From Spirosoma taeanense (GTDB lineage: Bacteria > Bacteroidota > Bacteroidia > Cytophagales > Spirosomataceae): a stretch of DNA of 64,000 nucleotides. The notes beneath the pieces were generated by a model. It did no database searches. It worked only from the letters and a program-made list of their open reading frames with translations, and was not told where the DNA came from. The translations under genes and the position numbers were made by a program. Below, piece by piece: positions 12,758 through 55,036 of this stretch. The stretch spans positions 868,001 to 932,000 of the forward strand of contig NZ_CP053435.1 of assembly GCF_013127955.1 (NCBI RefSeq), read 5' to 3'. How positions within the stretch are numbered: position 1 is the first letter of the stretch; every line of letters starts with the position of its first letter.

Positions 12758-12826
12758 AGTTGGTCAGTCAGTGCAGTCGTGAAGTGATTTTCGATGAATA
12801 CGGATTGATTAACTGACTGACCAACT
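12758..12826 (+). repeat. Inverted repeat between sucA and sucB
   Basis: Perfect 15-base arms AGTTGGTCAGTCAGT and its complement are separated by 39 bases. The arms are built from repeats of a TCAG/CTGA word. No T-tract follows, and the second arm ends 9 bases before the sucB start, so it is unlikely to be a full terminator. It could lower sucB expression or mark an mRNA processing site. Confidence 0.8.
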
Positions 12827-12835
12827 AACTGCTAT

Positions 12836-14464
12836 ATGGCCGTTGATATGAAAATCCCCGCTGTAGGGGAATCCATTACTGAAGTAACCGTTGGCACCTG
12901 GTATAAGAAAGAAGGCGATCAGGTGAAAATGGACGACGTCCTTTGCGGACTCGATTCTGATAAGGCAACGTTTGAACTGACGGCCGAATCAGACGGTATT
13001 CTGCATATTCTGGCGCAGGAAGGCGACGTGCTTCCCATTGGAGCCAGCATCTGCACTATTGACGATGGCGCGGCTGCCTCCAATGGGGCCGCAACGCCTG
13101 CTTCAACCGAACCGGCAAAGGCCGAAGCGCCCAAAGCTGAACCCGCAAAATCTGCTGAGTCAGCACCAGCACTTCAGGCCGTGGCAGAACCGGCTGCTGC
13201 GCCGGTAGCAACTGGCTCAAGTGTGATTGAGATGAAAGTACCAGCCGTAGGGGAATCCGTTACGGAAGTGACCATTGCGTCGTGGAGCAAGAAAGACGGT
13301 GATCAGGTAGCGCTGGACGAAGTGCTGTGCGAGCTGGAATCGGACAAAGCTACGTTTGAGCTTCCTGCCGAAGCTGCCGGTACGCTCCGGATTGTAGCGC
13401 AGGCAGGCGAAACGCTGCCCATTGGTGCGCTGATTGCCAAGATTGAAACGGGTGCTTCCGCGGGAACTTCCCAACCTGCTCCTGCTCAGCCAGCACCGCA
13501 GCAGACTACGGCTCTGTCAAGCAACGGATCGAGTCAGCATGGTAGCGCGCAACCGGGCTACGCGGCTAATCATCCGTCGCCCGCAGCCGCCAAAATTCTG
13601 GACGAAAAAGGCGTTTCGGCCCAGCAGGTTCAGGGTACGGGTGTAGGTGGACGTATCACGAAGGAAGATGCGCTGAAAGCCCAGCCCGCTCCGGCACAAA
13701 CGGCTCCTGCCCAGCCTGCGGCTAAACCGTCAGCACCGGCACCCGCTCCGGCTGCTTCGGGTAATCGTGAACAGCGCCGTGAGAAAATGACCTCGCTGCG
13801 TCGGACGATTGCACGCCGACTGGTCGCTGTGAAGAATGAAACGGCCATGCTCACTACCTTCAACGAGGTGGACATGAAGCCGATCATGGATCTGCGCAAT
13901 AAGTATAAAGATAAGTTCAAAGAGAAAAACGGTGTGGGCCTTGGGTTTATGTCGTTCTTCACGAAAGCCGTCTGCATTGCGCTGAAGGAGTTCCCGGCCG
14001 TGAACGCCCAGATCGATGGCGATCAAATCGTGTACAACGATTTCTGCGACGTATCCATCGCGGTTTCGACCGACCGGGGCCTTGTGGTTCCGGTGATTCG
14101 GAATGCTGAGCAGATGAGCTTTGCCCAGATTGAGAAAGAGATCGTGCGGCTGGCTGGTCTGGCCCGGGACAATAAGCTGACGATCGAGCAGATGACCGGC
14201 GGTACGTTCACCATCACGAATGGCGGTACGTTCGGCTCCATGCTGTCAACGCCGATCATTAACGCTCCGCAGTCGGCTATTCTGGGTATGCACAACATCG
14301 TTGAGCGGCCCGTGGTCGTTAACGGTGAGATTGTGATCCGGCCGATTATGTATGTAGCGCTGTCATACGATCACCGCATCATCGACGGTAAAGAGTCCGT
14401 GAGCTTCCTGGTCCGTGTGAAGCAGATTCTAGAAGATCCAACGCGAATCCTGCTGGATATGTAA
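12836..14464 (+). CDS. sucB: Dihydrolipoyllysine succinyltransferase (OGDC E2), two lipoyl domains
   Basis: A 542-residue E2 subunit of 2-oxoglutarate dehydrogenase. Domains in order: a lipoyl domain (Lys43 in DSDKATFEL), an Ala/Pro-rich linker, a second lipoyl domain (Lys171 in ESDKATFEL), another linker, an E3-binding domain ([14 protein letters not shown] to [10 protein letters not shown]) and the acyltransferase domain ending in [11 protein letters not shown] with the catalytic His. Many succinyltransferase E2s have a single lipoyl domain, so the duplication is noteworthy. It follows sucA in the same operon. A pyruvate-type E2 is possible by domain count, but the sucA neighbour favours the succinyl form. 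Confidence 0.93.
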
Positions 14465-14475
14465 TAACCATTAAC

Positions 14476-14516
14476 ATAAAAAAGCCGCTCTGAATTGGTC
14501 AGAGCGGCTTTTTTAT
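14476..14516. terminator. Bidirectional terminator between sucB and gpmI
   Basis: The stem AAAAAAGCCGCTCTGA pairs with its complement across a five-base loop and ends in six T bases. It lies between the stops of two convergent genes and should act on both strands. Confidence 0.95.
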
Positions 14517-14518
14517 AT

Positions 14519-16054
14519 CTATTCGTTTATCAAACTGATGCCTGTCATTTCGGGCGGTTTCGGAATGCCCATCAGGTGCAGGATAGTGGGTGCAATATCA
14601 GCAAGTTTACCGTTGTTTAGCTTTGGTTGGTAATCGTTATCCACCAGAATGCACGGAACCAGGTTGGTGGTGTGCGCAGTATTGGGCGAGCCATCCTCGT
14701 TGATCATGAACTCAGCATTGCCATGATCGGCAATAATAATCGTTGAATAACCATGATCCAGGGCCGCCTGCGTAACGGCTTTGGCGCAGGCATCGGCGGT
14801 TTCAGCCGCTTTAATAACAGCCTCGAAAACGCCCGTATGACCCACCATGTCGGTATTGGCAAAGTTCAGGCAGATAAAATCGGTTTCCTCGTTCTGCAGC
14901 TCAGGAACAATAGCATCGCGAATGTCATAAGCGGCCATTTCTGGTTTCTGATCGTAGGTTTTAACGTCTTTTGGCGACGGGCACAGAATCCGCTTCTCAC
15001 CGGTAAAGGGTTCCTCGCGGCCACCGGAGAAGAAAAACGTAACGTGCGGGTATTTTTCTGTTTCCGCAATTCGAATCTGCTTCCGGCCGGCGCCGGCAAT
15101 AACTTCACCCAGCGTATTCTGCAGATTGTCTTTCTCAAAAATGACTTTGACGCCTTCAAAGTCATCGTCGTACTTGGTCAAGGTAACGTAATTCAGCGCC
15201 AGCTTTTTCATGCCCTGCTCCGGAAAATCTTTCTGGGTCAGCGCCTGCGTAATTTCGCGGCCCCTGTCGGTCCGGAAGTTAAAGCAAAGCACTACGTCAC
15301 CGTCTTCAATGACCGCTATGGGCGAGCCATCGGCTCTGGTTGCGATGATTGGCTTCACAAATTCGTCGGTTACGCCCGCATCATACGAAGCCTGCAACGC
15401 AGCCGTAACGGCATCCGGCGAAACTGGTTGACCGGTGCCGTGAACCATAGCGTCGTAAGCCACCCGAACGCGCTCCCAGCGGTTGTCGCGGTCCATGGCG
15501 TAGTAACGGCCCACAACGCTGGCAATCTGGCCGGTTGTTGCGGCCATGTGCCCTTGTAGTTCCGTCAGAAAACCAACCCCACTCTTTGGGTCGGTATCGC
15601 GGCCGTCGGTAAAGGCATGGACAAAGACATTGGTCAGGCCGTGATTCTGAGCAATCGAAAGAAGCCCTTTGAGGTGGTCAATATGCGCATGAACGCCCCC
15701 GTCGGAAACCAGACCAATAAAGTGAACCTTCCTGCCCGACGTTCTGGCGTAATTCAGGGCGTCAGTCAGGACAGGTTCGGTATCTAATGTGTGCTCATCA
15801 ACTGCCTTGTTGATTTTGACCAGGTCCTGATACACGACCCGACCCGCGCCGAGGTTCATGTGGCCTACTTCCGAGTTGCCCATCTGCCCGGACGGCAGAC
15901 CAACCGCCAGTCCAGAGGCTTCCAGCAGACTGTTGGAGTATTTCGGGTAAAGTGACCGCATGAAGGGGACACTGGCCGCTTCGATGGCCGATACTTCGGG
16001 CTTGAGGGGAATCCCCCAGCCATCAAGTATGATAAGAATGACCTTTTTGTTCAT
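14519..16054 (-). CDS. gpmI: 2,3-bisphosphoglycerate-independent phosphoglycerate mutase
   Basis: A 511-residue two-domain metalloenzyme of the alkaline phosphatase superfamily that interconverts 3- and 2-phosphoglycerate in glycolysis. The N-terminus ILIILDGWG holds a metal Asp, MGNSEVGHMN holds the phosphoserine nucleophile, and IIADHGNAE with NTAHTTNLVP gives the C-terminal metal ligands. The length is typical. ATG at 16054 was preferred to an upstream TTG. It is the last of a leftward run that includes eno, the following enzyme of the same pathway. Confidence 0.97.
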   Translation of the reverse strand: MNKKVILIILDGWGIPLKPEVSAIEAASVPFMRSLYPKYSNSLLEASGLAVGLPSGQMGNSEVGHMNLGAGRVVYQDLVKINKAVDEHTLDTEPVLTDALNYARTSGRKVHFIGLVSDGGVHAHIDHLKGLLSIAQNHGLTNVFVHAFTDGRDTDPKSGVGFLTELQGHMAATTGQIASVVGRYYAMDRDNRWERVRVAYDAMVHGTGQPVSPDAVTAALQASYDAGVTDEFVKPIIATRADGSPIAVIEDGDVVLCFNFRTDRGREITQALTQKDFPEQGMKKLALNYVTLTKYDDDFEGVKVIFEKDNLQNTLGEVIAGAGRKQIRIAETEKYPHVTFFFSGGREEPFTGEKRILCPSPKDVKTYDQKPEMAAYDIRDAIVPELQNEETDFICLNFANTDMVGHTGVFEAVIKAAETADACAKAVTQAALDHGYSTIIIADHGNAEFMINEDGSPNTAHTTNLVPCILVDNDYQPKLNNGKLADIAPTILHLMGIPKPPEMTGISLINE

Positions 16055-16075
16055 ATGCAACGGGTGAAAAAGCAG

Positions 16076-16141
16076 AAGAGCGAATGAGTGAAAAGCTGAC
16101 GCATGAGAGCCGCTTGTTCATTCATTCACTCGTTCGCTCTT
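16076..16141 (-). repeat. Inverted repeat overlapping the phosphatase gene end
   Basis: Arms 16076-16092 and 16125-16141 (AAGAGCGAATGAGTGAA and its complement) match at 16 of 17 bases, and both are built from GAGTGAAT/GAGCGAAT words. The upstream arm, read leftward, supplies the last codons of the phosphatase gene, and the other arm lies 22 bases before gpmI. No T-tract follows. It closely resembles the element at 32631-32693. Confidence 0.8.
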
Positions 16142-16636
16142 TACATAGTCAAGTTCATGCTGCTGCGCAAGGTACACCAGTAACTGTCGACAGCAGCGCA
16201 GGCAGATCTGGTAAACTTCTTCAAATACCTCCGGGCCTTCATAATAAGGATCGGGCACGTCTGGTTGGTCGCCGACTTGCGGATCAAATTCGCGCAGCAG
16301 AAAAATGGTATCGGTTGTATGCAGACCGGTGCTTCGATAGTTCAGTTTTTCAATGGCTTCGAGGTTTGCCTCGTCCATCGCCACAAAATAAGTGAACTGG
16401 GCCAAGTCTTCGCCGGTCATGCGTCGGGCGCGATGGGTGAGAGTCAGATTGTGCTCAAGCGCGTTCTCGCGGGTCCGGCGGTCGGGTAACTGCCCCAAGT
16501 GAAACGATGAGGTACCGGCCGAATCGCAATGAAGCAGCTCACTCAGCCCGGCTTCGGCTACTAATGACCGAAATACGCCTTCTGCTACCGGCGACCGGCA
16601 GATGTTGCCGTAACAAACGAAAAGCACGGAAAGCAT
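16118..16636 (-). CDS. Low-molecular-weight protein-tyrosine phosphatase
   Basis: A 172-residue LMW-PTP. The phosphate loop CYGNICRS starts at residue 8 (Cys8 nucleophile, Arg14), and the general-acid region VPDPYY is in the C-terminal third. Both parts of the active site are intact. Such enzymes dephosphorylate tyrosine kinases in exopolysaccharide control or act on small substrates; no kinase is adjacent. ATG at 16636 was chosen over a TTG six codons upstream. The last residues (ERVNE) are encoded by the arm of an intergenic hairpin, so the C-terminal tail is probably not conserved. Confidence 0.9.
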   Translation of the reverse strand: MLSVLFVCYGNICRSPVAEGVFRSLVAEAGLSELLHCDSAGTSSFHLGQLPDRRTRENALEHNLTLTHRARRMTGEDLAQFTYFVAMDEANLEAIEKLNYRSTGLHTTDTIFLLREFDPQVGDQPDVPDPYYEGPEVFEEVYQICLRCCRQLLVYLAQQHELDYVKSERVNE

Positions 16637-16666
16637 AGTGGCGATCTTCAGCAAACAATCAGCTTA

Positions 16667-16978
16667 CTACTTCTCAATCGGTTCATTCTGTTCATCGACG
16701 ATGACAAACACATCTTCGGTCGGCTTTTTCATCAGGTACTTCTCCCGGGCGAATTTTTCGCGAAGCCGGTCATTGCCCAGCACTTCGCGCCGTTCAACCT
16801 GCAGGCGGCTAATCTGCTCCTGATAATACGTCGCTTCCTTTTCCAGCTCGTGCAGTTTCCACCAGTTCCGGGCCTGCGTAACCAGATCATTGGCGTCAAA
16901 AAACAGCATCCAGACCAGCAATGCCAAGCCCGTGGCCACGTAAAAATTACGAACGGAGCGGAAGAGACGATTGAGCAT
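16667..16978 (-). CDS. FtsB/DivIC-type septum formation initiator protein
   Basis: A 103-residue bitopic protein. A short cytoplasmic start (MLNRLFRSVRNFY) is followed by one membrane segment (about residues 12-30) and a coiled coil (WKLHELEKEATYYQEQISRLQVERREVL), then the terminal FAREKYLMKKPTEDVFVI motif typical of FtsB/DivIC. It would join the FtsQLB/DivIB complex that controls septal wall synthesis. The frame extends 12 codons upstream, but ATG at 16978 gives the normal topology. Its place directly after eno is a common bacterial arrangement. Confidence 0.9.
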   Translation of the reverse strand: MLNRLFRSVRNFYVATGLALLVWMLFFDANDLVTQARNWWKLHELEKEATYYQEQISRLQVERREVLGNDRLREKFAREKYLMKKPTEDVFVIVDEQNEPIEK

Positions 16979-16993
16979 GACTATATAGGATAC

Positions 16994-17036
16994 AGGCGGT
17001 ACGATAAATGGCACTTAGTCATTCATCGTACCGCCT
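16994..17036 (-). repeat. Hairpin between eno and the FtsB/DivIC-like gene
   Basis: Arms AGGCGGTACGATAAATG and its near-complement (16 of 17 bases) flank a nine-base loop. It starts 10 bases after the eno stop and ends 16 bases before the next start, with no T-run after it on the leftward strand. It may be a weak terminator or mRNA stabiliser at the end of the eno message. Confidence 0.7.
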
Positions 17037-17045
17037 TACGTCGTT

Positions 17046-18344
<1,299 letters not shown>

Positions 18345-18469
18345 TTAACAACGAAAAAGCCAATTTTTTCGGTGGTGATTACCAAGTTGTTGCAGGAACC
18401 GGGTAAACCGACGCAAAGTAACAAAATACGAGGCAAACTTCAGACCGGTCAGACAAAACCGCGTTAAAT

Positions 18470-19936
18470 CTAGCTTTCCTGGCTCGCATCAATTTTTTTA
18501 ACCACCTCGTTATTAAGTATATACGTAAACATGCGCCGATCAAGCGTTGTAGGGACTCGCTCAACGGCTTCGTTGATATCCCAGAGCAGCTTTATTTTTA
18601 GATTAATGCCTTTGATGACGTCAGCTCGCACCCGGCGTTGGTTGTCCAGGGTTTTGTCGGTAATCTTCAGCAATTCATTGAGTTGTTCACCACTGATGCC
18701 GCCCGTTGTCTGCGCCCGTAGCAGGGCCTCAAATACTTCCTTTTCCTGCGGGTTGAGAACAGACAACTGGCTGATTCGGGTGGGCTCCTGGTGAGCAGTG
18801 GGAGTCGGCTTTGCTACGGCTTTTTTGTGCCGCAATCTCCAGAATAAGTTAGCGCCTATACCAACCAGTAGCAGAGTCCCCAATGTACAGACAGCCCAAA
18901 GGATAGAATTATCCTCGGTTTCGTAGAAAGCGCCAATAGGCCGGGCGTCGCGCCAGATCTGAGCAATGGGTAACTTGATGATGCGAACGCCTGCCTCTGA
19001 GTTATCTGCCACATTCCGGCGAAAATGCAGCGTATTCTGCCACACATAACTATGGTATACATCCCGCTCGCCATTAGCCAGTACATTACCCAGCAATTTA
19101 TCAGTATCCCGCCAAAGTCTGGCTTCGTTACGAACCGCGTCGAACACCAGAAAGGTTGTCAGCGGGTTGTCGTAAAAGCAAAGTATAAAGTATCGGTTAA
19201 TCTGAAACCAGCTCGCCTTGCTCAGAATATCGAATTGTAGATGTTCGCGCACTGCTGATGACGTTTGCCCAACCTTCCGCCAGGTATTGCTGGCGAATGA
19301 GAACTGATAGACGCCCTCGTCCCAGTGAAACCCGCCCTGGTGCTCAGAGTCATTCTGATGAAAGCTCAGGGCAGAGATAAAGGCGTCGACTTCGGGCACA
19401 TAGCCGTTGAATCCCTGATAGATTGAGGCAGGCGCGTTCGTGGCAGAATTCAGACTTTCCCATTCATTCGTGGCAGCCTTGTAATACGCCAGAATGTTGT
19501 TTGTATGCCAGAATCCGTAACCGCCGAAACTGTGCAGGATACCCTTTCGTATGAACTTCGCCGAATGGCAGTTATAGCCTCTAAAAAATGTTTTATCCAA
19601 TCGTTCCAGCCGCCTTGTCTGCCGATTGAATTGGTAAACCTGCTGCGTACAGTTAACCAGCAGGAGACGATTAGTCGAATCGACCGGGAAGCTTTCAACG
19701 CGGGTGGGTGACGGAAACTCACCCGAAACAACACCTTGCAGTTCTATAACGCCCTGTAGTTGCCAGATGCCCGGTCTGGTTTCGACTTCCAGCGTTTTTT
19801 TATTCGTATCAATTCGGTGCAGTCGGCCGTCGGGCGCGTCGGGCCAGGTCAGGACGGCGGCATAACTATGTCCCGTTTGTAGTCCGAAGAGCAAGTGGAC
19901 TAATAACCAGATATATAACTGACAATAACGACTCAT
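18470..19936 (-). CDS. Membrane-anchored sensor with beta-propeller-like ectodomain and cytoplasmic helical domain
   Basis: A 488-residue protein of unrecognised family. It has an N-terminal signal segment (residues about 1-27), a Trp/Tyr-rich extracytoplasmic region of repeated strands such as GGYGFWHTNN, YYKAATNEWESL and FASNTWRKVG that resembles a Kelch-like propeller, one membrane helix (about 346-368) and a 120-residue cytoplasmic tail. The tail (NPQEKEVFEALLRAQ to KTLDNQRRVRADVIKGINLKI) looks like a winged-helix or other DNA-binding domain. The layout suggests a one-component transmembrane regulator, but no target is adjacent and the DNA-binding role is inferred. It stands alone between eno and a hairpin region. 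Confidence 0.7.
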   Translation of the reverse strand: MSRYCQLYIWLLVHLLFGLQTGHSYAAVLTWPDAPDGRLHRIDTNKKTLEVETRPGIWQLQGVIELQGVVSGEFPSPTRVESFPVDSTNRLLLVNCTQQVYQFNRQTRRLERLDKTFFRGYNCHSAKFIRKGILHSFGGYGFWHTNNILAYYKAATNEWESLNSATNAPASIYQGFNGYVPEVDAFISALSFHQNDSEHQGGFHWDEGVYQFSFASNTWRKVGQTSSAVREHLQFDILSKASWFQINRYFILCFYDNPLTTFLVFDAVRNEARLWRDTDKLLGNVLANGERDVYHSYVWQNTLHFRRNVADNSEAGVRIIKLPIAQIWRDARPIGAFYETEDNSILWAVCTLGTLLLVGIGANLFWRLRHKKAVAKPTPTAHQEPTRISQLSVLNPQEKEVFEALLRAQTTGGISGEQLNELLKITDKTLDNQRRVRADVIKGINLKIKLLWDINEAVERVPTTLDRRMFTYILNNEVVKKIDASQES

Positions 19937-20107
19937 GATGGGGATGGATAAAAGCCAATGCAGACAAATATGTCTTTATTCCCGGATATGTGAGGAAGGG
20001 AAATCACGGAAATTTTCTTGCCGACCGTAAAGGGGAACGCTTTTTTTGCGGCAGATAACCGCCCCACCCACGTTCAGCCTTCCTTTCTAGGCCTTTACGT
20101 GATGAAC

Positions 20108-20152
20108 CAGCTCAAAATTCATAAACTTTATATGTTTATGAATTTTGAGCTG
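20108..20152. repeat. AT-rich perfect 19-base inverted repeat
   Basis: Arms CAGCTCAAAATTCATAAAC and the exact complement flank a seven-base loop (TTTATAT). It lies in the 250-base spacer between the divergent sensor gene and a small ORF. There is no T-tail or direct-repeat flank. It could be a terminator, a regulatory hairpin or an operator; nothing else was seen in the spacer apart from a likely promoter region. Confidence 0.75.
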
Positions 20153-20189
20153 TTCGTTACCCTTGTCTGGTGCTTTGCGTTCTGCTTTC

Positions 20190-20426
20190 ATGCCACTTTC
20201 TCATTCTGCGAATCCCCAAAATATCCTTGAGTTTGTGAAATGCTATGGGATCCACTTCGAGCTATTAAGGCGTGAGTTGATCGGCTGTAGTGAGATTTCT
20301 TCTGAACGTAATAAAGCTATTCTGGCTGATTTTCAGGAGGAAACCAGACCCATGGTCCTTGCTGTGGCCGAATTGATTCGACAGGAAGTGATACGTATGG
20401 AGTGGGGACAGACTTCTGATAATTAA
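20190..20426 (+). CDS. Small hypothetical helical protein
   Basis: A 78-residue protein starting MPLSHSANPQ. Most of it appears helical and amphipathic, with mixed charges (LRRELIGCSE, ILADFQEETRPMVLAVAELIRQEVIRME), and it has no signal or membrane segment. Two upstream in-frame positions could also start it, but the ATG at 20190 is the one most clearly after the hairpin. No family is recognised. Its amino-acid make-up looks like a real protein, but it stands alone, so it is only moderately supported. Confidence 0.45.
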   Translation: MPLSHSANPQNILEFVKCYGIHFELLRRELIGCSEISSERNKAILADFQEETRPMVLAVAELIRQEVIRMEWGQTSDN

Positions 20427-20544
20427 TTGGCTTCAGGACCTAACGGGGGCTGCCTGCCTGACCATTACGTGTAGCTTCTGCTGATTCCGTTGCAAACCCG
20501 CCTGCTTTTTCGGTACTTAGCCTTGCCACTACCCGGTGCCGCCG

Positions 20545-22494: not shown

Positions 22495-22545
22495 AATTGG
22501 TTCGTATTTACGTAACCGACGTAATGGATTCTGTTTTTTAAAAGT

Positions 22546-23037: not shown

Positions 23038-23128
23038 ATGAACCCTGGGCAGACCGGCCACCAGCTTACATCAGGTTAGCCATTTTGTCGTTTTATTTGT
23101 TGTGGTTTCACAACCCGACTGCCTTTCC

Positions 23129-24820: not shown

Positions 24821-24827
24821 TTGAGGC

Positions 24828-28205: not shown

Positions 28206-28233
28206 TGGTTCGCTTTACCGGATAGGCGAACCA
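28206..28233 (+). repeat. Short hairpin between the recombinase gene and eboA
   Basis: Arms TGGTTCGC and GCGAACCA flank a 12-base loop. It lies in the 59-base spacer between two rightward genes and has no T-tract. Confidence 0.5.
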
Positions 28234-32627: not shown

Positions 32628-32630
32628 TCA

Positions 32631-32693
32631 TTGAGTGGATGAGTGATTGAGTAGATGCTGTTCACTCATTCGCTCATTCACTCAATCGCTCAA
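32631..32693 (+). repeat. Octamer-built inverted repeat between eboB and eboC
   Basis: The second arm reads ACTCATTC GCTCATTC ACTCAATC GCTCAA, a degenerate tandem octamer, and pairs imperfectly with TTGAGTGGATGAGTGATTGA at its other end. It fills the 65-base spacer and ends at the eboC start codon. There is no T-tract. It shares its repeat words with the element at 16076-16141. Confidence 0.75.
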
Positions 32694-38360: not shown

Positions 38361-38395
38361 TTTTCGGATCGCAACCCATAGCTGCGATCCGAAAA
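38361..38395 (-). repeat. Hairpin between metY and metX
   Basis: Perfect 13-base arms TTTTCGGATCGCA and its complement flank a nine-base loop. It lies between the metY stop and the metX start. On the leftward strand the stem ends in AAAA, not T, so it is not a typical terminator. Confidence 0.75.
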
Positions 38396-39941: not shown

Positions 39942-40060
39942 GATTTATAGTCCCTAACGATCCGCCACCGCGGTTGCTTTAGGCAGGAGTTAGCACCTTG
40001 CCATGTGGTAGGTTGCCAGCGGTTCGCAGAGCCTGATCTCTCCCCGCTTCTGTATAAATC
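39942..40060 (-). promoter_or_regulatory. SAM-I (S-box) riboswitch upstream of metY
   Basis: On the leftward strand the leader has the SAM-I hallmarks in order: P1 GATTTATA, an AGCGG strand, GGGAGAGATCAGGCTC, TGCGAACCGCTGGCAACC, and AAGGTGCTAACTCC, with the closing TATAAATC at 39942-39949 on the plus strand. AGCGG pairs with CCGCT, and P1 closes over eight bases. The aptamer lies about 220 bases upstream of metY. When SAM binds, expression of metY and metX would fall, giving feedback on methionine synthesis. The expression platform was not assigned. Confidence 0.85.
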
Positions 40061-42568: not shown

Positions 42569-42581
42569 GCTTTAAAAAATG

Positions 42582-44361: not shown

Positions 44362-44507
44362 TTCTGCTTTTGGGTATGTTACGGTAGGTAATTTAGAAGC
44401 ACTAAAGTAGGTAGTTATACTTATTGATGGAATGATGTTGAATTAAACTTAGCTTAAAGTTGTCATCCAGACCGACAGGTCTGTTCATTATGTTGCCTTT
44501 GTGAAAT

Positions 44508-45503: not shown

Positions 45504-45544
45504 ACCGAAGGTAGTCGCCCGGCGACTGCCTGTTGCTTATCAGC

Positions 45545-46453: not shown

Positions 46454-46490
46454 ACTAAAAAGGGGCTGCAAGCAGCCCCTTTTTAGTTTA
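46451..46490. terminator. Bidirectional terminator palindrome between convergent stops
   Basis: A 40-base element with 19-base arms around an AA loop (core AAAAAGGGGCTGC and complement) includes both stop codons, TAA at 46451 and the TAA of the leftward gene at 46488-46490. The T-run after the GC stem is present on both strands. Confidence 0.95.
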
Positions 46491-47558: not shown

Positions 47559-47693
47559 TCAAAAAAGTGTTTGTAAGCGGTAGCGAATACGAAGATCCAG
47601 GGGCGGAACCGGCCCCGGCAAATGTACAAAGAGCGCGCTCATTCCCTGACTGAAGGCCGGGCTGTTTTAGAAGGATAATTTTGCGAATAAACT

Positions 47694-48107
47694 TCAGAAT
47701 CCGATCCGCTCGCGCTTCTGCTCGACGCCCATGGACCGTAACAAATCCATTGCGATGCGGTCGTCGTATTTCCGTTTCCAGTAGTCGGCCTCCAGGCGAA
47801 GTTTATCCAGTTCCACATGTTGCTTCTCGACAGTCAGGCGGAGTTTATCCAGTTCGTGGGTAGTGGCTGGGTCAGCTTTGGGCTCAACAATCTGGGCCGA
47901 TACGGCTTCGTCGGTCAGCAGGGCCAAGGGCGAGACATTAAGAGCATCGGCAATCTGGGTCAGCCGCGCAATGGTCAGGTCGGTTTTGCCGCGCTCAATG
48001 TCGCCATACGCCGTTGTGGACAGATTAAGCATATCCGCCATATTTTCCTGCGACAAACCGCGCTGGAGTCGCTGCAGTCGTATTTTTTCTGCGATGGATG
48101 CCTTCAT
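47694..48107 (-). CDS. XRE family helix-turn-helix regulator
   Basis: A 137-residue regulator. An N-terminal HTH_3 domain (residues about 6-62) reads LQRGLSQENMADMLNLSTTAYGDIERGKTDLTIARLTQIADALNV, with the usual two recognition helices. The C-terminal half is a predicted coiled coil (LDKLRLTVEKQHVELDKLRLEADYWKRKY) that probably dimerises it. No ligand domain is present. It diverges from clpP; whether it controls that gene is unknown. Confidence 0.93.
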   Translation of the reverse strand: MKASIAEKIRLQRLQRGLSQENMADMLNLSTTAYGDIERGKTDLTIARLTQIADALNVSPLALLTDEAVSAQIVEPKADPATTHELDKLRLTVEKQHVELDKLRLEADYWKRKYDDRIAMDLLRSMGVEQKRERIGF

Positions 48108-48283
48108 ATCAAGTAACTACGATAAATTCTAAACCAGAACCGACAGGACTTTTCGGGATGATAACGCATTTTTGTACCGTTCGGTGCAATCATACCCCGC
48201 CAGGTTACCTGGACCCGGGCGGGTTTGATCTCGAAACTTACACCATCTGTTATTGGTTTTCAAACAAAGAGTAAACGCCATTT

Positions 48284-48967
48284 ATGAATTACGAAAAAGA
48301 ATTCCGCAAATTCGCCGTGCATCATATGGGCCTGAACGGCCTGACGGTGGACGGTTACGTAAACCACACCGTTGAGAACATGACCCGCTCGGTGATTGAA
48401 GAGCGTCCCATGAACTTCCGTGAGGTGGATGTATTCTCCCGGCTGATGGCCGACCGGATCATCTTCATGGGTCTGCCCGTTGACGATAACATCGCCAATA
48501 TCATTGTGGCCCAGCTTCTTTTCCTGGAGTCGGCCGATCCGAAGAAAGACATTCTGATGTATTTAAATAGCCCCGGCGGGTCGGTTTACGCGGGTCTGGG
48601 TATTTACGATACCATGCAGTACGTGCGGCCCGACGTAGCGACAGTCTGCACCAGTCTGGCCGCTTCGATGGGTGCCGTTCTGCTGGCGGGTGGTGCCGCA
48701 GGCAAGCGTTCGGCGCTGCCCCACGCCCGCATCATGATTCACCAGCCGTCGGGTGGTGCGCAGGGGCAATCGGTCGATATTGAGATTACGGCCCGCGAAA
48801 TTGTTAAGCTGCGTGTGGAGCTATACGAGATTCTGGCGCATCATTCGGGCAAGACCGTTGAAGAGATTGAGAAAGATTCGGACCGTGACAAATGGATGCG
48901 GGCCGACGAAGCAAAAGAATATGGCCTGATCGACGAAGTCCTACGCCGGGACCGGCCCACGACCTAA
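48284..48967 (+). CDS. clpP: ATP-dependent Clp protease proteolytic subunit
   Basis: A 227-residue ClpP. The catalytic Ser128 is in SLAASMG and His153 in [11 protein letters not shown], with the Asp expected about 50 residues later. The YLNSPGGSV loop gives the oxyanion strand. The N-terminus is longer than in E. coli, as is common in Bacteroidota. It forms the two-ring protease that works with ClpX or ClpA. clpX lies 1.15 kb downstream with a lipoprotein gene between them, so the two are not strictly adjacent. Confidence 0.97.
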
Positions 48968-48984
48968 GCCGTCGTGAACGAGTG

Positions 48985-49022
48985 AAAAGCGCGGGTTGCC
49001 ATTGTGTAACCCGCGCTTTTTT
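48985..49022 (+). terminator. Rho-independent terminator of clpP
   Basis: The stem AAAAGCGCGGGTT pairs perfectly with AACCCGCGCTTTT across a ten-base loop and is followed by extra T bases. It separates clpP from the following lipoprotein gene. Confidence 0.95.
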
Positions 49023-49122
49023 GTTAACGATATGGGGGGGCCGGGGCCAGGGGCATGGTTTTTGTTTACTGAACAACTGAAAATATGTAGTAAGGCAGTT
49101 TAACTGAAAACGACCAGCCTGT

Positions 49123-49914
49123 ATGAAAATTCGTGTACTCGTTCGTTGGTTTAGCGGTCTCTTTGTTGGGTTATGCGTTGCGGCCTGCTCGGTGCCCGAT
49201 GCGCCTGATCCGGGGCCGGAATACCGGCTGGTCAGAACAACTTATTCGGGGCTTTCCGGACGTACGCTGAATATCGACACAACCCTCTATACGTATGATC
49301 AACTTGGTCGGTTAAGCAGTTATACATCACATGGCGAGAACCCGCAGGCCGTTCGGCGGACAATGATTTACTACAACGCCGAAAATCGCATTGACCACAT
49401 TGATCAGCAACTGCCCAACGGTGGATTCCTTGATGGAACAACTCGGGTTGTTGGCTGGCGGGCTATATACCGCCATGATGCTATGGGGAATGTGGAGACC
49501 GTTACGGTGTCGAAGGCTATAGACGACTTTGCTCATTTTACGCCCTACGAAGAGTATCGGTTTATGTACGAAGCTAACCGCGTTCCGTCCCGAATAACGG
49601 TTATCAAGCTCAATACCAACCAGGCTGATAATTACGATTATACGTATTCGGAAGGAAATATCATTCGCGTCCGGCACACATCCGTTCTGCTGGCAAAGGC
49701 CGAAGAAGTTACGTATGAATATGACGACAGGCAGAACGTCAATAAAGGAATCATCAGGCTTACGCCGGACCTGGACTATTATAATCGAAACAACCGGATT
49801 ACGGGTCTGACGCCTTTTTATGACGAGCGGGGATTACTGGTAAAAACCACATCGCCGGGCCAAATTCGCGATAACATTACGTTGTACACCTATGAAGAGG
49901 TGACCAGAAACTAA
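49123..49914 (+). CDS. YD-repeat-like lipoprotein of unknown function
   Basis: A 263-residue lipoprotein; the signal FVGLCVAACS has a VAAC lipobox. The mature part has repeated Tyr-Asp-rich strands resembling RHS/YD repeats (TLYTYDQLGRLSSY, AIYRHDAMGNVETV, VTYEYDDRQNV, FYDERGLLV). It is much shorter than RHS toxins and lacks any toxin tail. It lies alone between clpP and clpX behind a terminator. Function unknown; the start ATG follows about 40 bases of spacer. Confidence 0.75.
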   Translation: MKIRVLVRWFSGLFVGLCVAACSVPDAPDPGPEYRLVRTTYSGLSGRTLNIDTTLYTYDQLGRLSSYTSHGENPQAVRRTMIYYNAENRIDHIDQQLPNGGFLDGTTRVVGWRAIYRHDAMGNVETVTVSKAIDDFAHFTPYEEYRFMYEANRVPSRITVIKLNTNQADNYDYTYSEGNIIRVRHTSVLLAKAEEVTYEYDDRQNVNKGIIRLTPDLDYYNRNNRITGLTPFYDERGLLVKTTSPGQIRDNITLYTYEEVTRN

Positions 49915-49974
49915 TCCCTTGGCGCTGATAGTTTGGGGAATTGACCGCCGGTGGATAAATTTGCTTACCACAGA

Positions 49975-50004
49975 TGACCTGGGCTCGCCTGGGTCGTTTT
50001 TTTT
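49975..50004 (+). terminator. Probable weak terminator after the YD-repeat lipoprotein gene
   Basis: A GACC/GGTC-type stem within GACCTGGGCTCGCCTGGGTC is followed by eight T bases at 49997-50004. Stem pairing is imperfect, so confidence is low. The rest of this spacer shows no gene. Confidence 0.4.
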
Positions 50005-50122
50005 ACTGAAATTAGACTAACAAAGCTCTTATACGATCCGTTAACCATATTCGTTCGGCAGACGCGCTGACATCACCGTTATCCGAACGAATTTAACTTC
50101 GCTATTTACACTGCAAACGTAC

Positions 50123-51355
50123 ATGCCACAAATTAGTTGCTCGTTCTGCGGACGGCGCAAAAACGAGGTGCTGCTGCTCCTGTCGGGCATCGACGCGCAC
50201 ATCTGCAACTACTGTATTGAACAGGGCCACCAGGTGGTACTGGAGGAAATGCGTCCCCGTCAGAGTGAACCGACGGAGGTGCATATCAACCTCATCAAGC
50301 CAGTGGATATGAAACACCACCTCGACCAGTACGTTGTTGGGCAGGATGATGCCAAGAAAGCGATTACGGTTGCCGTGTATAACCACTATAAGCGGCTCAT
50401 GCAGCCGAAAACCAATGATGATGTAACGATTGAAAAGTCGAATATCATTATGGTCGGTGAAACCGGTACCGGAAAGACTTACCTGGCCCGCTCTATCGCC
50501 AAGATTCTTGAAGTTCCGTTCTGCATTGCCGATGCGACGGTCATAACCGAAGCCGGTTACGTAGGCGAGGATGTTGAGACGATTCTGACCCGGCTGCTGC
50601 AGGCCGCTGATTATAATGTCGAAGCGGCCGAGCGAGGTATCGTTTATATTGACGAGATTGACAAAATCGCCCGAAAGTCCGACAATCCCAGCATCACCCG
50701 CGATGTTAGTGGCGAAGGGGTGCAGCAGGCCTTGCTGAAACTGCTCGAAGGCTCGGTGGTGAACGTACCGCCCCAGGGTGGCCGCAAGCACCCCGACCAG
50801 CGGATGATCTCGCTGAATACGGAAAACATTCTGTTCATTTGCGGGGGCGCGTTTGATGGTATTGAACGGCACATTACGAAGCGGATTAATACCCGACCTA
50901 TTGGTTTTTCGGGCGACCGTCGCCTGAACGATAGCTTTGAAAAAGGGCATCTGATGCGCTATATCTCAGCGCTTGATCTGAAATCGTTTGGGCTGATTCC
51001 GGAACTGATTGGCCGGTTACCTATTCTGACATACCTCGAACCGCTCGACCGCGATGCGCTGATGCAGATTCTGACGGAGCCCAAAAACGCCCTCACCAAA
51101 CAGTATGATAAACTGTTCCAGATGGAGGACATCAAGCTCCACTGGGACCCGAGTGCGCTCAACTACATTGTCGATCAGGCATTGCAATACGGACTTGGTG
51201 CACGCGGGCTGCGATCCATCTGCGAATCAATCATCATGGATGCCATGTTCGAAATGCCTTCGCAAACAGGCGTTAAAGAGTTTACGATTAGTTTGGAGTA
51301 TGCCCGCGAGAAATTTGGCAAATCCACTACTTTTCAACTGCGTTCGGTGGCTTAG
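50123..51355 (+). CDS. clpX: ATP-dependent Clp protease ATP-binding subunit ClpX
   Basis: A 410-residue AAA+ unfoldase. The zinc-binding domain has Cys6, Cys9, Cys28 and Cys31. The P-loop is GETGTGKT, the Walker B region [12 protein letters not shown], and the GYVGEDVE loop is the ClpX-specific pore-1 region. The length is normal. It recognises and unfolds tagged proteins for ClpP. It has its own terminator downstream. Confidence 0.98.
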
Positions 51356-51380
51356 GCAGCGCATAAAATTGATTAAACTG

Positions 51381-51414
51381 ATCCCTGGTTCTGAAAGGAG
51401 CCGGGGATTTTTTT
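51381..51414 (+). terminator. Rho-independent terminator of clpX
   Basis: The stem ATCCCTGGTTC pairs with GAGCCGGGGAT (two wobble pairs) across a short loop and is followed by seven T bases. Confidence 0.85.
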
Positions 51415-51519
51415 ACCAGTGAGTCGAAATTTTCTGATGGTTTATAACAAAGGGAGGGTAACCCGGTTTAGCCGTTGATAATTCAATTGTTACACCCAAT
51501 TAAAACAAACGTTACGCCA

Positions 51520-52122
51520 ATGAAAATCACTACACTACGTCTGGTAACTGGCCTGATGATGGCCACTCTGTTTGCAGCCTGTAGCCGTCCGGTGGCTTAC
51601 TTTCAGCCAGGTCAGCGTGAACACATTGCGGCAACACCTGCTCCCGTTAATACGACCGAGACGCTTACGCCGGCTACTGTCGAGGCTCCGGTCGTAACAG
51701 CGGCCACAACCACCGAGCCGGTAGTGCAGGCTAACGCAGCCCTGGAGCAGGCAACTGCTCTCGTACGTAACGATGCCAAACTGTCGGCAGATAAGACCGT
51801 AGCCAAGCGATTAAATCGTGTGCGGACACTGCTGGCCTCTGCTTCGGCAAAAGGAACCCTGACGCCATCGGCTACGAACGCGCCCAGAAAGGCAGGCCTG
51901 ATGGAGCGGATGATGTTGAAGAAAGTCAATAAGAAAATAAACCGGCAACTGGCCCCCGCCAATCCGGAGAAAGCGATGGCCAGTACAGGAACGCTGGCAA
52001 CCGGCGCGGTGCTGGTCATTGTTGGTCTGTTGCTGCTGCTGCTCACGAGCGGCACGGGTGCAACCATCGGGCTGATATTATTGCTGGTTGGGGCGGTTGT
52101 TCTGCTGATTGGTTTATTGTGA
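51520..52122 (+). CDS. Lipoprotein with two C-terminal hydrophobic segments, tandem paralog 1
   Basis: A 200-residue lipoprotein. The lipobox FAAC lies near residue 21 and is followed by the motif SRPVAYFQ. The middle is Thr/Pro/Ala-rich with short helical stretches (ALVRNDAKLSADKTVAKRLNRV). A basic patch LMERMMLKKVNKKIN precedes two hydrophobic stretches (about residues 158-178 and 182-200) separated by TSGTG. A lipid anchor with a C-terminal hydrophobic hairpin is unusual. The next gene is a paralog sharing all three parts. The frame runs upstream, but ATG at 51520 gives the signal. Function unknown. Confidence 0.75.
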   Translation: MKITTLRLVTGLMMATLFAACSRPVAYFQPGQREHIAATPAPVNTTETLTPATVEAPVVTAATTTEPVVQANAALEQATALVRNDAKLSADKTVAKRLNRVRTLLASASAKGTLTPSATNAPRKAGLMERMMLKKVNKKINRQLAPANPEKAMASTGTLATGAVLVIVGLLLLLLTSGTGATIGLILLLVGAVVLLIGLL

Positions 52123-52172
52123 GCCTGACAGCTACCAGGTAACCAAACTCTTGGGACGTCAATTTATGAAAG

Positions 52173-52216
52173 GCCTCCGTTGGCAACGAGTTTTAACTAA
52201 CCGACGGAGGCTTTTT
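52173..52216 (+). terminator. Terminator between the paralogous lipoprotein genes
   Basis: The stem GCCTCCGTTGG pairs with CCGACGGAGGC (one wobble pair) and is followed by five T bases. Confidence 0.85.
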
Positions 52217-52336
52217 ATCGCCAAATGGTTCATTAAATCATATTCAAACCGGTTTTTTACAAGGTAACCTAACAAACGGATAAGGATGCAGTTGTTGTGG
52301 TTGATAAATCCATTGTTCACATTAAAATCGTTCTCT

Positions 52337-52936
52337 ATGAGCACGTTCTCCAAACCAATTCTTGCGGCCCTGATGGGCGCAGCCATTCTTTCATCCTGCA
52401 GCCGTCCAGTGGCTTATTTTCAGCGCACGCCAACCGAGCGGTTCTCGTCTCCGAAAACGGAAACCGTAGCCGTTGCAACGCCGGCTGAAGTGGCTGAGCC
52501 GACACCCGTAGTAGCTCCCGAGGTAACTCCTACTCCGGCTGAGCAGATTGCTCAAACCAAGGAGGTCATGAGTCAGGTAGAAGCCTACGTTCGAAATGAC
52601 AGCAAGCTGGCATCGAACAAAAAACTGACTAAACGTATAGCGCGGGTAAACGAAATGCTAGCTACGTCGAGTGAGAAGGCAACCGTTTCGACAAACGCAG
52701 CGTCAAGCAAGAAAATGTCGCTGATGGAGCGCACGATGCTGAAAAAGCTGGATAAAAAAATAAAAAACCATGTAGCGCCCGATGAAGCACAGTTGAACCG
52801 GAACACACGTAACGGTATCATCATTGGCGCCATTGGTCTTATCCTGTCGCTGATTTTTGGCGGTGTTATCGGCGTTATCGGTCTGATTCTGCTCGTTGTG
52901 GGTATCGTGCTGATTCTGCTTGGTATTCTTGAGTAA
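52337..52936 (+). CDS. Lipoprotein with two C-terminal hydrophobic segments, tandem paralog 2
   Basis: A 199-residue lipoprotein paralogous to its neighbour. The lipobox LSSC is followed by the same SRPVAYFQ motif, a Pro/Thr-rich stretch, a helical VEAYVRNDSKLASNKKLTKRI segment, the basic patch LMERTMLKKLDKKIK and two hydrophobic segments (IIIGAIGLILSLIF and VIGLILLVVGIVLILLGIL). Linker sequences have diverged while the ends are conserved. Each copy has its own terminator, so each is probably a separate unit. ATG at 52337 was chosen for the signal. Function unknown. Confidence 0.75.
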   Translation: MSTFSKPILAALMGAAILSSCSRPVAYFQRTPTERFSSPKTETVAVATPAEVAEPTPVVAPEVTPTPAEQIAQTKEVMSQVEAYVRNDSKLASNKKLTKRIARVNEMLATSSEKATVSTNAASSKKMSLMERTMLKKLDKKIKNHVAPDEAQLNRNTRNGIIIGAIGLILSLIFGGVIGVIGLILLVVGIVLILLGILE

Positions 52937-52950
52937 ACCAACCTAAGTAG

Positions 52951-52985
52951 CCCTGCAGGACATTCAGGTTCTGCAGGGTTTTTTT
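52951..52985 (+). terminator. Rho-independent terminator of the second lipoprotein gene
   Basis: The stem CCCTGCAG pairs with CTGCAGGG across a 12-base loop and is followed by seven T bases. The next start codon is only six bases beyond the T-run. Confidence 0.9.
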
Positions 52986-52990
52986 ATACC

Positions 52991-53710
52991 ATGCGTTCAT
53001 CGCCAGTTATCTGCCTTATTCACGGACACGGTGTAGATGCCTCCATCTGGGACGATATCTATCCGGCTTTATCGGAGAATAAGTCAGTACTGAAGCCTGA
53101 TTTCTCCCGGCTTACCAATTACTCAACCATTGAGGCTTACGCTGAAGATCTGCACGCCCGGCTAAAAATGGCTCAGGTAGAAGAAGTTATTCTAATCGGG
53201 CATTCCATGGGCGGATATATTGCCCTAGCGTTTGCCGAAGAGTACCCGGATATGGTCCGCGGACTAATTCTTTTTCATTCGACGGCTTATGCCGACGACG
53301 CAGCCAAGAAAGAGCAGCGGGCAAAAACAGTTGATGCACTGGCTAAAGAAGGCTCTGCTCCGTTTATCAATGGCCTGATGGCCAAACTGGTTGCTTCTAC
53401 CTATCCCCCGGAGCAGGTTAATCGGTTAGTAGAACGCTTTCAAGGTTTGCCAGCCGCAGCCCTCATCGCCGGTATGAAAGCCATGGCCGAGCGGCCCGAC
53501 CGGACGGATGTGCTTCGGAATGCTCAATTCCCTGTACTGGTGGTGCTGGGCCAGGAGGACCAGGTTATTCCGTTTGAACAGGCGAGCCAGATGGCGGGCT
53601 TATCCAGTCGAATAAACATGTCTGCACTGAACAATGCTGGTCATCTAAGCATGGTTGAGCAGCCCGAACAGGCCTTATCCATTCTTAAACCGTTTATTGA
53701 TCAGTTCTAA
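52991..53710 (+). CDS. Alpha/beta-fold hydrolase
   Basis: A 239-residue cytoplasmic hydrolase. The nucleophile elbow is GHSMGGY (about residues 73-79), ICLIHGHGVDASIWDD is the oxyanion region, VLGQEDQVIPF holds the likely acid, and NNAGHLSMVEQPEQ holds the catalytic His. The family covers many esterases and hydrolases, so the substrate is open. It starts just after the preceding terminator and ends at its own. Confidence 0.9.
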   Translation: MRSSPVICLIHGHGVDASIWDDIYPALSENKSVLKPDFSRLTNYSTIEAYAEDLHARLKMAQVEEVILIGHSMGGYIALAFAEEYPDMVRGLILFHSTAYADDAAKKEQRAKTVDALAKEGSAPFINGLMAKLVASTYPPEQVNRLVERFQGLPAAALIAGMKAMAERPDRTDVLRNAQFPVLVVLGQEDQVIPFEQASQMAGLSSRINMSALNNAGHLSMVEQPEQALSILKPFIDQF

Positions 53711-53732
53711 TTTATCCGGAGCCAGCTAACGT

Positions 53733-53757
53733 AAGGAAGCCATTGGGCTTCCTTTTT
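53733..53757 (+). terminator. Terminator before argD
   Basis: A perfect stem AAGGAAGCC/GGCTTCCTT with a four-base loop is followed by T bases, after the hydrolase stop. Confidence 0.9.
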
Positions 53758-53852
53758 GCGTTTTAGACCCGTTTTCGCCTGATTATCCGTAAACTTGCAC
53801 CGGTTTTCGCCCAAAAGGGCATTTTGCTACTTGTGTAATCAACGGTCTGATC

Positions 53853-54986
53853 ATGGCTGATTTGTTCAATGTTTATCCGCTCTACGACATCGAACCCGTT
53901 CGGGCGCAGGGCAGCTACCTCTGGGATACACACGGTACCCGTTATCTGGATCTGTACGGCGGTCATGCTGTCATCTCGGTAGGACATACGCACCCCCGGT
54001 ACGTACAGGCTCTGACCGATCAGCTTCATAAGATTTCATTCTATTCCAACTCCGTCCGGATACCGCAGCAGCAGGAACTGGCCGATAAGCTGGGCGCCTT
54101 ATCAGAACACCCGGACTATGCGCTGTTTCTATGTAATTCCGGCGCCGAAGCGAACGAGAACGCGCTGAAACTGGCGTCCTTCCACACGGGCCGGACGCAG
54201 GTTGTCGCCTTCTCCAAGTCCTTTCATGGCCGAACGGCCGGGGCCGTTGCGGCTACCGACAACCCGGCTATCGTGGCTCCGGTTAATTACAAGGAACACG
54301 TTCGGTTTTTGCCTTATAACGACGTAGAAGCTGCCCGGGCGGGTATCACCAGTGAGACCTGCGCGGTCATTATTGAGGGAATCCAGGGCGTTGGCGGCAT
54401 CCACGTAGCGACCGACGAGTTTCTGCAAACGCTCCGGCAGCGGTGCGACGAAACTGGCGCTGTCCTGATTCTGGACGGGGTTCAGTGCGGCTATGGTCGG
54501 TCGGGGAAATTCTTCTCGCATCAATTCAGCGGCATCGAGGCCGATATTATCTCCATGGCAAAAGGCATGGGCAATGGCTTCCCGATTGGTGGAATTCTGA
54601 TTTCCCCCAAATTTAAAGCCAGTTATGGCCTGCTGGGTACGACCTTCGGGGGCAACCACCTGGCCTGTACGGCGGCTATCGCCGTGCTCGACATCATGGA
54701 AGAAGAGGGTCTGATCGAAAACGCTACCCGGATGGGCGAGTACTTCATGGACGGTATTCGCCAGATTGGCGGCTTCAAAGACCTGCGTGGCCGGGGGCTG
54801 ATGATTGGCATCGAATACGATTTTCCCGTGGATGACCTACGTAAAACGTTGTTGTTTACCCATAAGCAGTTTACGGGCGTAGCCGGCAAAAACACCATCC
54901 GGCTTCTGCCTTCGCTGGCTATTGGCATCGATGAAGCCGACCAGTTTCTGGAAGCCCTCAGCCACGAAGTAAAAGTTTTATCCTAA
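53853..54986 (+). CDS. argD: Acetylornithine/succinylornithine aminotransferase family protein
   Basis: A 377-residue class III aminotransferase. The substrate region LYDIEPVRAQGSYLWDTHG, the PLP site LDGVQCGYGRSGK and the Schiff-base Lys in ISMAKGMGNGFPIGG are all visible. The length is a little short but complete. It converts N-acyl-glutamate semialdehyde to N-acylornithine in arginine synthesis. It is followed by the argF'-type and argB genes, so the acyl group (acetyl or succinyl) matters and cannot be told from this gene alone. Confidence 0.92.
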   Translation: MADLFNVYPLYDIEPVRAQGSYLWDTHGTRYLDLYGGHAVISVGHTHPRYVQALTDQLHKISFYSNSVRIPQQQELADKLGALSEHPDYALFLCNSGAEANENALKLASFHTGRTQVVAFSKSFHGRTAGAVAATDNPAIVAPVNYKEHVRFLPYNDVEAARAGITSETCAVIIEGIQGVGGIHVATDEFLQTLRQRCDETGAVLILDGVQCGYGRSGKFFSHQFSGIEADIISMAKGMGNGFPIGGILISPKFKASYGLLGTTFGGNHLACTAAIAVLDIMEEEGLIENATRMGEYFMDGIRQIGGFKDLRGRGLMIGIEYDFPVDDLRKTLLFTHKQFTGVAGKNTIRLLPSLAIGIDEADQFLEALSHEVKVLS

Positions 54987-54997
54987 ACGGTCTTATC

Positions 54998-55036
54998 GTC
55001 ATCAGCAGTCATTGTTAGTCAACGACTGCTGATGAC
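54998..55036 (+). repeat. Inverted repeat between argD and the transcarbamylase gene
   Basis: Arms 54998-55014 and 55020-55036 (GTCATCAGCAGTCATTG and its complement) match at 16 of 17 bases around a five-base loop. The repeat words ATGACT and CAGTC recur just after it. There is no T-tract. It lies 11 bases after the argD stop and 35 bases before the next start. Confidence 0.8.

Follow-up and report, generated by a model that had tools for sequence, protein, structure and literature searches.

What are the inverted repeats that stand in the gaps between co-directional genes of Spirosoma taeanense, and what keeps them there? The question is raised by a stretch of 64,000 nucleotides of this genome (contig NZ_CP053435.1, 5.69 Mb long, positions 868,001 to 932,000), called the window below, in which an original prediction, made from the letters alone, had listed seven hairpins without T-tracts as possible processing, stabilising or attenuation signals inside operons. 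The hairpins are real and unlike the terminators of this genome. They belong to a class that is common to the genus and lies between a stop codon and the next start in one operon; at given junctions the position and the self-complementarity persist while the letters differ between species. The reading that we favour, with evenly balanced confidence, is that these are repeat hairpins renewed in the operon gaps, with upkeep at the DNA level and a role in the mRNA that depends on structure only.

Hairpins of short co-directional spacers

The survey covered 800 kb of the own genome, with genes called by a simple hexamer script, spacers of 20-600 bp and a gap-free score of at least 12; stems with bulges are missed by this finder. 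A strong inverted repeat is present in 28 of 236 co-directional spacers of up to 150 bp, where shuffles gave 0.3, and the class thus survives the comparison with shuffled spacers. It is also present in 35 of 122 longer co-directional spacers, 42 of 83 convergent spacers and 6 of 100 divergent spacers, with none in the shuffles of any of these groups. Two kinds of repeat can be recognized in the survey: long and convergent spacers mostly hold stems with small loops and A/T ends, and short co-directional spacers often hold large loops with arms made of repeated words.

Hairpin classes were compared in five genomes (2.35 Mb), with a hairpin score of at least 11, short spacers defined as those of up to 130 bp, and T-less hairpins as those with no TTTT within the last 6 arm bases and the following 10 nt. 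By this definition 80 of 111 hairpins of short co-directional spacers are T-less and do not qualify as T-tailed terminators. These 80 have a median loop of 17 nt, begin 9 nt past the stop codon and leave 16 nt to the next start; in their 5' arm G exceeds C in 60 cases and C exceeds G in 13. The polarity is alike on both gene strands (30:5 and 30:8), and the median arm is 19-24 nt. The T-tailed hairpins of longer spacers (n=81) have a loop of 8 nt, the next start 154 nt away and a 5' arm with G over C in 28 cases versus 45 for the reverse. The T-tailed hairpins of short spacers (n=31), with a loop of 14 nt, a G to C polarity of 20 versus 6 and the same lags, resemble the T-less ones, so that the presence of a T-run draws no sharp boundary around the class. 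Self-match at lags of 4, 7, 8 and 12 is raised mainly in short co-directional spacers, the T-tailed ones included. A spacer length set by the hairpin with a constant remainder was considered and rejected: longer spacers do not have hairpins of greater span (rho -0.13, p 0.22 for 95 hairpins).

Intrinsic terminators also place a hairpin past the stop codon, and it is important to ask whether the class consists of terminators or attenuators that lack the T-tract. The concentration of inverted repeats at gene ends, convergent ones included, agrees with this explanation. However, the hairpins described here are mostly without a T-tract, their loops are larger than those of the T-tailed hairpins of longer spacers, and the next start, at a median of 16 nt, leaves little room for a promoter. 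The sequence TAnnTTTG, a promoter core of Bacteroidetes, is found in only 4 of the 80 hairpin spacers (4 sites in 7.0 kb); for comparison, it occurs in 157 of 610 divergent upstream regions (161 sites in 103.7 kb) and, among the other short co-directional spacers, in 51 of 518 (53 sites in 37.4 kb). In addition, the genes on either side of the hairpin are functionally paired at sucA/sucB and at metY/metX, and metY/metX lies beneath a riboswitch. Because the next start is so near, termination is unlikely; the hairpins are probably not terminators, and we regard the explanation by terminators or attenuators as very unlikely. Consensus promoter and terminator scans of positions 12000-51999 of the window gave no clear excess of sites over shuffles and are uninformative.

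Sites of the window and their orthologous junctions

All seven predicted inverted repeats are present, at or within a few bases of where they had been placed, and they lie in spacers of 59-91 bp, in agreement with a location inside apparent operons. Each spacer, with 30 bases on either side, was compared with 400 dinucleotide-preserving shuffles. The scores at six sites were never reached, while the short inverted repeat of xerC/eboA (28206..28233, + strand, 8 perfect pairs) was matched by 7.5% of the shuffles (p 0.075) and is not significant alone; it is a single copy in the own genome, the only genome in which this spacer was read. The statement that no T-run follows the hairpins holds for six of the seven. 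The exception is LMW-PTP/gpmI, where a T5 run stands 4 nt beyond the stem (the - strand there reads ctgcTTTTTca). Hairpins with a T-tail are present at other places of the window, for example at 14476-14516.

The orthologous junctions were taken from protein searches in 36 genomes of the genus, including the own one, together with a scan of named genomes for sucB, and the spacers were cut from the loci. The SucB protein of the window is closest to Spirosoma records, with an identity of 83% at best. The counts refer to distinct spacers, after removal of those below 20 or above 300 bp, of exact duplicates and of the window row, the own genome being kept through its fetched locus. Since the junctions are those of the original list and their neighbours, the resulting percentages are not genome averages. 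The hairpins counted have a score of at least 12.

The sucA/sucB hairpin (12758..12826, + strand) lies between the sucA stop at 12744 and the sucB start at 12836, and its arms consist of degenerate GTCA/GTTG tetrads; in relatives a hairpin with other arms is found in the same place in 12 of 21 spacers. The eno/divIC hairpin (16994..17036, - strand) has counterparts with different words in 29 of 33 spacers. At eboB/eboC (32630..32686, + strand), where the arms are octads ATTGAGTGGATGAGTGATTGAGT, a hairpin is present in 17 of 23 spacers. The hairpin of LMW-PTP/gpmI (16076..16141, - strand), with octad arms GAGCGAACGAGTGAAT, lies upstream of gpmI and spans the stop codon of LMW-PTP (16118); this junction, ptp/gpmI, holds a hairpin in 23 of 32 spacers, typically with the 5' arm inside the coding end. 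In the window the octad 5' arm codes for the C-terminal tail of LMW-PTP, so that the end of the protein varies with the repeat in relatives.

The metY/metX hairpin (38361..38395, - strand) is matched by one in 18 of 23 spacers, often with GTTT heptads. Two metY/metX spacers (L227 and L232) carry a hairpin TTTATTTGTCATTCCG...CGGAATGACAAA that is common to two genomes and forms a family distinct from the heptads. Upstream of metY is an S-adenosylmethionine (SAM) riboswitch (39942..40060, - strand; Rfam RF00162, 66.1 bits with a gathering score of 44.4), which is the leader of the metY-hairpin-metX unit. It is the sole Rfam family above its gathering score in the window, and the hairpins match none.

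The argD/argF' hairpin (54998..55036, + strand) is not generally shared, being found in 2 of 15 spacers, the own one included. Among the further junctions, a hairpin is present in 17 of 33 spacers at divIC/ptp, 6 of 21 at argF/argB, 1 of 5 at eboC/eboD and 0 of 6 at eboD/eboE. An additional T-less hairpin, absent from the original list, is located at 57615..57664 (- strand), past the stop codon of the gene 57679-59628 and in a co-directional spacer of 252 bp. It has a perfect stem of 23 bp with a loop of 4 nt, and its score was reached by none of the 400 shuffles. The whole window has 36 co-directional spacers with a length of 15-600 bp, and 11 of them hold a repeat with a score of at least 10. 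Family matches agree with the gene names checked; the Pfam match of DivIC is below threshold (24.8 versus 28.9 bits), and the names of metX, metY, argD and argF' were confirmed at the level of the Pfam superfamily.

The arms at orthologous junctions differ between species. In the first seven junctions (sucA/sucB, eno/divIC, divIC/ptp, ptp/gpmI, eboB/eboC, metY/metX and argF/argB) G outnumbers C in the 5' arm of 114 among 122 hairpins, and C outnumbers G in 3. At least four word classes can be distinguished, namely AATG, GTTT and GGAGC heptads and GAGTGAA octads, with many hairpins unclassified, and there is no single fixed unit. A locus tends to keep its word class: metY/metX has GTTT heptads in 13 genomes with 8 unclassified, and ptp/gpmI has octads in 18 with 3 unclassified. 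The adjacent junctions eno/divIC and divIC/ptp have the same word class in all 8 genomes in which both are classified, where 4.0 would be expected (p 0.011). This is a lead only; unclassified and missing hairpins were dropped before the count, and the data sufficed for 9 of 15 junction pairs. The agreement looks as if neighbouring spacers had converted each other.

These observations bear on the possibility of a mobile element family, similar to REP elements or to miniature inverted-repeat transposable elements, that inserts into operon gaps. Of the 80 T-less hairpins, 31 have a stretch of at least 17 bp that recurs elsewhere in the portion of their genome that was sampled, as compared with 15 of the 81 T-tailed ones; some families, such as GTGTCGGGTTCTGGAGCGCC, occur in several species, and whole spacers are exchanged in some close genome pairs. 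However, the most copied stretches are mostly octad words of the GAGTGAAT type, and 49 of the 80 hairpins share no stretch with the sampled portion of their genome, which does not agree with REP or MITE copies. The hairpins are mainly in one orientation relative to transcription, and their words tend to be bound to the locus. Known REP elements, tagged by GTAG/CGTC, are small extragenic palindromes for which roles in mRNA stability or termination have been suggested (PMC3733652); unlike these, the hairpins described here have no common family sequence. The view that the hairpins are not copies of one mobile element is thus retained, with the reservation that words are shared by some of them, and an origin from mobile elements is most unlikely. 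A longer hairpin family with GTGTCGGGTT, in some cases also CTGGAGCGCCAGCCCGG, was observed in spacers L045, L211, L130 and L136, at various junctions and in various genomes, and looks mobile.

The spread of the class was followed at the flanks of sucB, in co-directional spacers of 40-130 bp. Hairpins are present in 15 of 27 spacers of Spirosoma and Fibrisoma, 6 of 8 of Fibrella, Rudanella and a related metagenome-assembled genome, 1 of 7 of Larkinella, 1 of 17 of Runella, Telluribacter and Dyadobacter, 0 of 25 of Arcicella, Emticicia and kin, 1 of 33 of other Cytophagales, 6 of 9 of Hymenobacteraceae and 0 of 1 of Pedobacter.

Repeats of seven and eight nucleotides

The arms of at least 16 nt from the first seven junctions were assigned their best period at 60% self-match. 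The period is 7 in 48 of these 108 arms, 8 in 26 and 10 in one, and 33 have none; shuffled arms gave 1.3 at period 7 and 1.4 at period 8, about 2.7 together. In the five-genome catalogue these two periods were found in 4 of 31 arms of T-tailed hairpins in long spacers and in 8 of 101 arms of convergent hairpins.

Degenerate tandem arrays of intergenic DNA (361 kb sampled) are likewise dominated by these periods: 45 arrays have period 7 and 34 have period 8, and all remaining periods from 4 to 12 together account for 12, while in coding DNA period 6 is foremost (27 arrays). An inverted partner within 150 bp is found for 62 of the 79 arrays of period 7 or 8 and for 0 of 79 shuffled controls. In co-directional spacers, arrays of the C type are start-proximal (39 of 41) and those of the G type stop-proximal (21 of 23). 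Several of the other groups of the sucB comparison also contain period-7 arrays, but with no partner. A long period-7 array of the ATCTATA type, over 150 bp in length, was seen in an Arcicella contig (L066).

Changes between sister species

Two pairs of sister species were compared over syntenic stretches of up to about 0.4 Mb each, in which reciprocal best hits have a median amino-acid identity of 96.8 and 97.7%. Among the co-directional spacers, 94 in one pair and 115 in the other, both sisters hold a hairpin with a score of 12 in 24 and 16 cases, and one sister does so in 12 and 13. Hairpins in which more than two pairs were gapped were left out of the covariation counts; among the co-directional ones this removed 12 of 60 and 3 of 45.

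Pairs changed on both sides number 35 and 18, counted in both directions, as compared with 4.8 and 2.5 expected under independent change; Watson-Crick double changes, counted in one direction in the alignable hairpins, affect 18 of 525 and 9 of 432 pairs. Such an excess is what template switching would produce, and selection on pairing would give the same excess. Convergent hairpins behave alike. The double changes of co-directional and convergent hairpins comprise 27 transitions and 26 transversions, and the changes in hairpin-free spacers 384:259 and 504:299.

Mismatches in the stems offer another view of the same question. The ratio of G-T to A-C mismatches is 41:30 in the class (p 0.24) and 76:56 in the junction set (p 0.10), compared with 18:13 in T-tailed and 27:29 in convergent hairpins, and this test is weak. 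One-sided changes between sisters gave 18:19 and 20:14. Of the 52 matched sister loops, 2 have an inverted identity above 0.8, where shuffled loops gave 0.04: a co-directional loop with 0.93 inverted versus 0.40 forward, and a convergent one with 0.83 versus 0.50. At a limit of 0.6 five loops were flagged as inverted, and the 3 beyond these two are at chance level (8.7 expected); a convergent loop at 0.61 holds an inverted block of 11-12 nt, with an identity that is not significant.

An RNA-level signal kept by selection would explain the compensation by selection alone: the mRNA would need the stem for processing by a double-strand-specific RNase, for protection of the 3' end of the first cistron, or for translational coupling or insulation. 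Hairpins are concentrated in transcribed gaps and gene ends and are rare in divergent spacers, they have the same polarity on both gene strands, and the same junctions are occupied across the genus. The arm length and the distances of the outer hairpin edges, which are near what we take to be ribosome footprints, also agree with such a signal, as does a G-T excess over A-C in T-less hairpins of longer spacers. However, G-T is barely above A-C in the class itself and in the sister changes, and double changes by transversion are as frequent as those by transition. The polarity is at least partly due to a general depletion of G before starts; hairpin-free spacers are also G-poor in their 3' half (G 0.183, C 0.257), which weakens the polarity as proof of an RNA function. 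Selection of an RNA signal alone is possible but rather unlikely. The reality of the class, as originally proposed, is confirmed, while its conservation pattern is not clearly that of an RNA-selected signal.

Replacement of spacers

A spacer was considered replaced when its identity was within 0.10 of that of shuffled sequence. At the chosen junctions of close genomes (33 comparisons in eight genome pairs, three of them sharing members), 19 have a hairpin on both sides of the comparison, and 9 of these show replacement. For genomes G001 and G022, the upstream gene ends are 96% (eno/divIC) and 93% (divIC/ptp) identical, while the spacers have an identity of only 0.61 and 0.53 versus 0.54 and 0.51 in shuffles; each genome has hairpins there, and the words of the two differ. 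The idea that fast turnover holds throughout the genome was rejected: replacement is frequent at the originally listed junctions and their neighbours, and the sampled sister stretches gave 2 of 40.

Comparison with known systems

Degenerate heptamer repeats of intergenic DNA have been described in Xanthomonas and Nostoc. The account given of them states that in two Xanthomonas genomes 70 and 75 cases are inverted pairs able to form stem-loops, and that the single or inverted-pair type is usually kept between the two genomes (PMC4692102). The tandem 7-nt units of the 45 arrays found here are similar to these. However, the Xanthomonas and Nostoc repeats, as portrayed in that account, are built of one G-rich unit per lineage and were studied as G-quadruplex formers, whereas here several word classes, periods of both 7 and 8, closely matched arms and a co-directional siting from stop to start are combined.

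Direct repeats of TAACTGA form heptamer arrays in the intergenic DNA of Beggiatoaceae, cyanobacteria and five Bacteroidetes; most stand a few nucleotides before a start codon, and a translational role has been suggested for them (PMC4679880). In those arrays one unit is repeated directly, and only one inverted case was noted for the genome studied, while the arrays described here are mostly inverted pairs of many words. Template switching, as outlined in a further study, leaves loop inversion and multi-base compensatory change as footprints and can renew a stem by copying arm from arm (PMC8794818). That study demonstrated it in genes for microRNA and rRNA; the present proposal extends it to operon spacers of one bacterial clade, with the 7/8-nt periodicity in addition. 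The combination of features found here was not met with in searches of open-licence full texts.

Proposed mechanism and its meaning

Double changes by transversion and a preference for G-U that is at most slight suggest template switching at the DNA level, and the pairing seems to be renewed in part at this level. A nascent strand would slip on the 7- or 8-nt repeats and switch template between the arms; the switch would re-copy arm from arm, sometimes flip the loop and occasionally rebuild the spacer, and the pairing could thereby be renewed while the letters drift. Slippage by units of 7 or 8 nt would account for the repeats. The palindromes might then persist in places where they are nearly harmless or even of some use, namely in operon gaps and at gene ends, and seldom in divergent promoter regions. 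Avoidance of G before start codons is the simplest cause of the polarity: it would make the 3' arm poor in G and consequently the 5' arm poor in C.

In the mRNA the stem would stand in the spacer between a terminating and an initiating ribosome, where it would most likely act by its structure only and not as a terminator. The putative roles include a barrier to exonucleases, a substrate for double-strand-specific cleavage and insulation of cistrons. The position of the hairpins, with a stem that separates stop from start, little room for promoters and, in one case, a SAM riboswitch before metY, makes it plausible that they serve mRNA processing, stability or insulation.

Several observations weigh against renewal by template switching. 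One-sided changes exceed double ones (38:18 and 37:9), and the double changes are not significantly clustered by hairpin, three or more being found in 2 hairpins versus 1.7 expected and in 3 versus 0.8. There is a single clear loop inversion in co-directional spacers, the weaker flagged loops being within chance. The slight G-T excess of the junction set and the clear one of 25:8 (p 0.005) in T-less hairpins of longer spacers leave room for selection at the RNA level. Period 7 or 8 is found in only 21 of 59 arms of T-less short-spacer hairpins in the five-genome catalogue, and in array spacers insertions and deletions of 7 nt are just slightly raised and those of 8 nt are absent, which is only a hint of steps of these lengths. 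Finally, where both sisters have a hairpin in a co-directional spacer, the spacer was replaced in only 2 of 24 and 0 of 16 cases, and the median identity of these spacers (0.89 and 0.93) is near that of hairpin-free spacers (0.92 and 0.93).

This last similarity also agrees with a neutral origin, in which palindromes made by slippage are tolerated in operon gaps as functionless debris; the small G-U bias, the loop inversions and the replacements point in the same direction. However, the presence of hairpins is junction-specific, as the counts for eno/divIC, eboD/eboE and argD/argF indicate, and the pairing would decay unless renewed. Neutral debris is a tentative explanation with a real though lesser chance of being correct. 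Renewal in operon gaps together with a structural role in the mRNA is the reading that we continue to favour. A more far-reaching form of it, which we consider unlikely, is that in Spirosoma and close genera a replication-linked rewriting, by 7/8-nt steps and arm copying, swaps the whole spacer, stop codon to start codon, at some junctions while a hairpin is kept; fold and place would then be inherited without the letters, the fold serving as a sequence-free divider of cistrons.

Covariation is usually taken as proof of a selected RNA structure. The covariation found here, with its double changes by transversion, two inverted loops and no clear preference for G-U, suggests that a part of it may be made by mutation. 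If this is so, caution would be needed in the discovery of RNA families in this clade, and the hairpins would offer a natural system in which template switching in bacteria could be measured. The nearly exclusive periods of 7 and 8 may also give a handle on the excess of heptamer repeats noted for bacteria in the account of the Xanthomonas and Nostoc repeats (PMC4692102).

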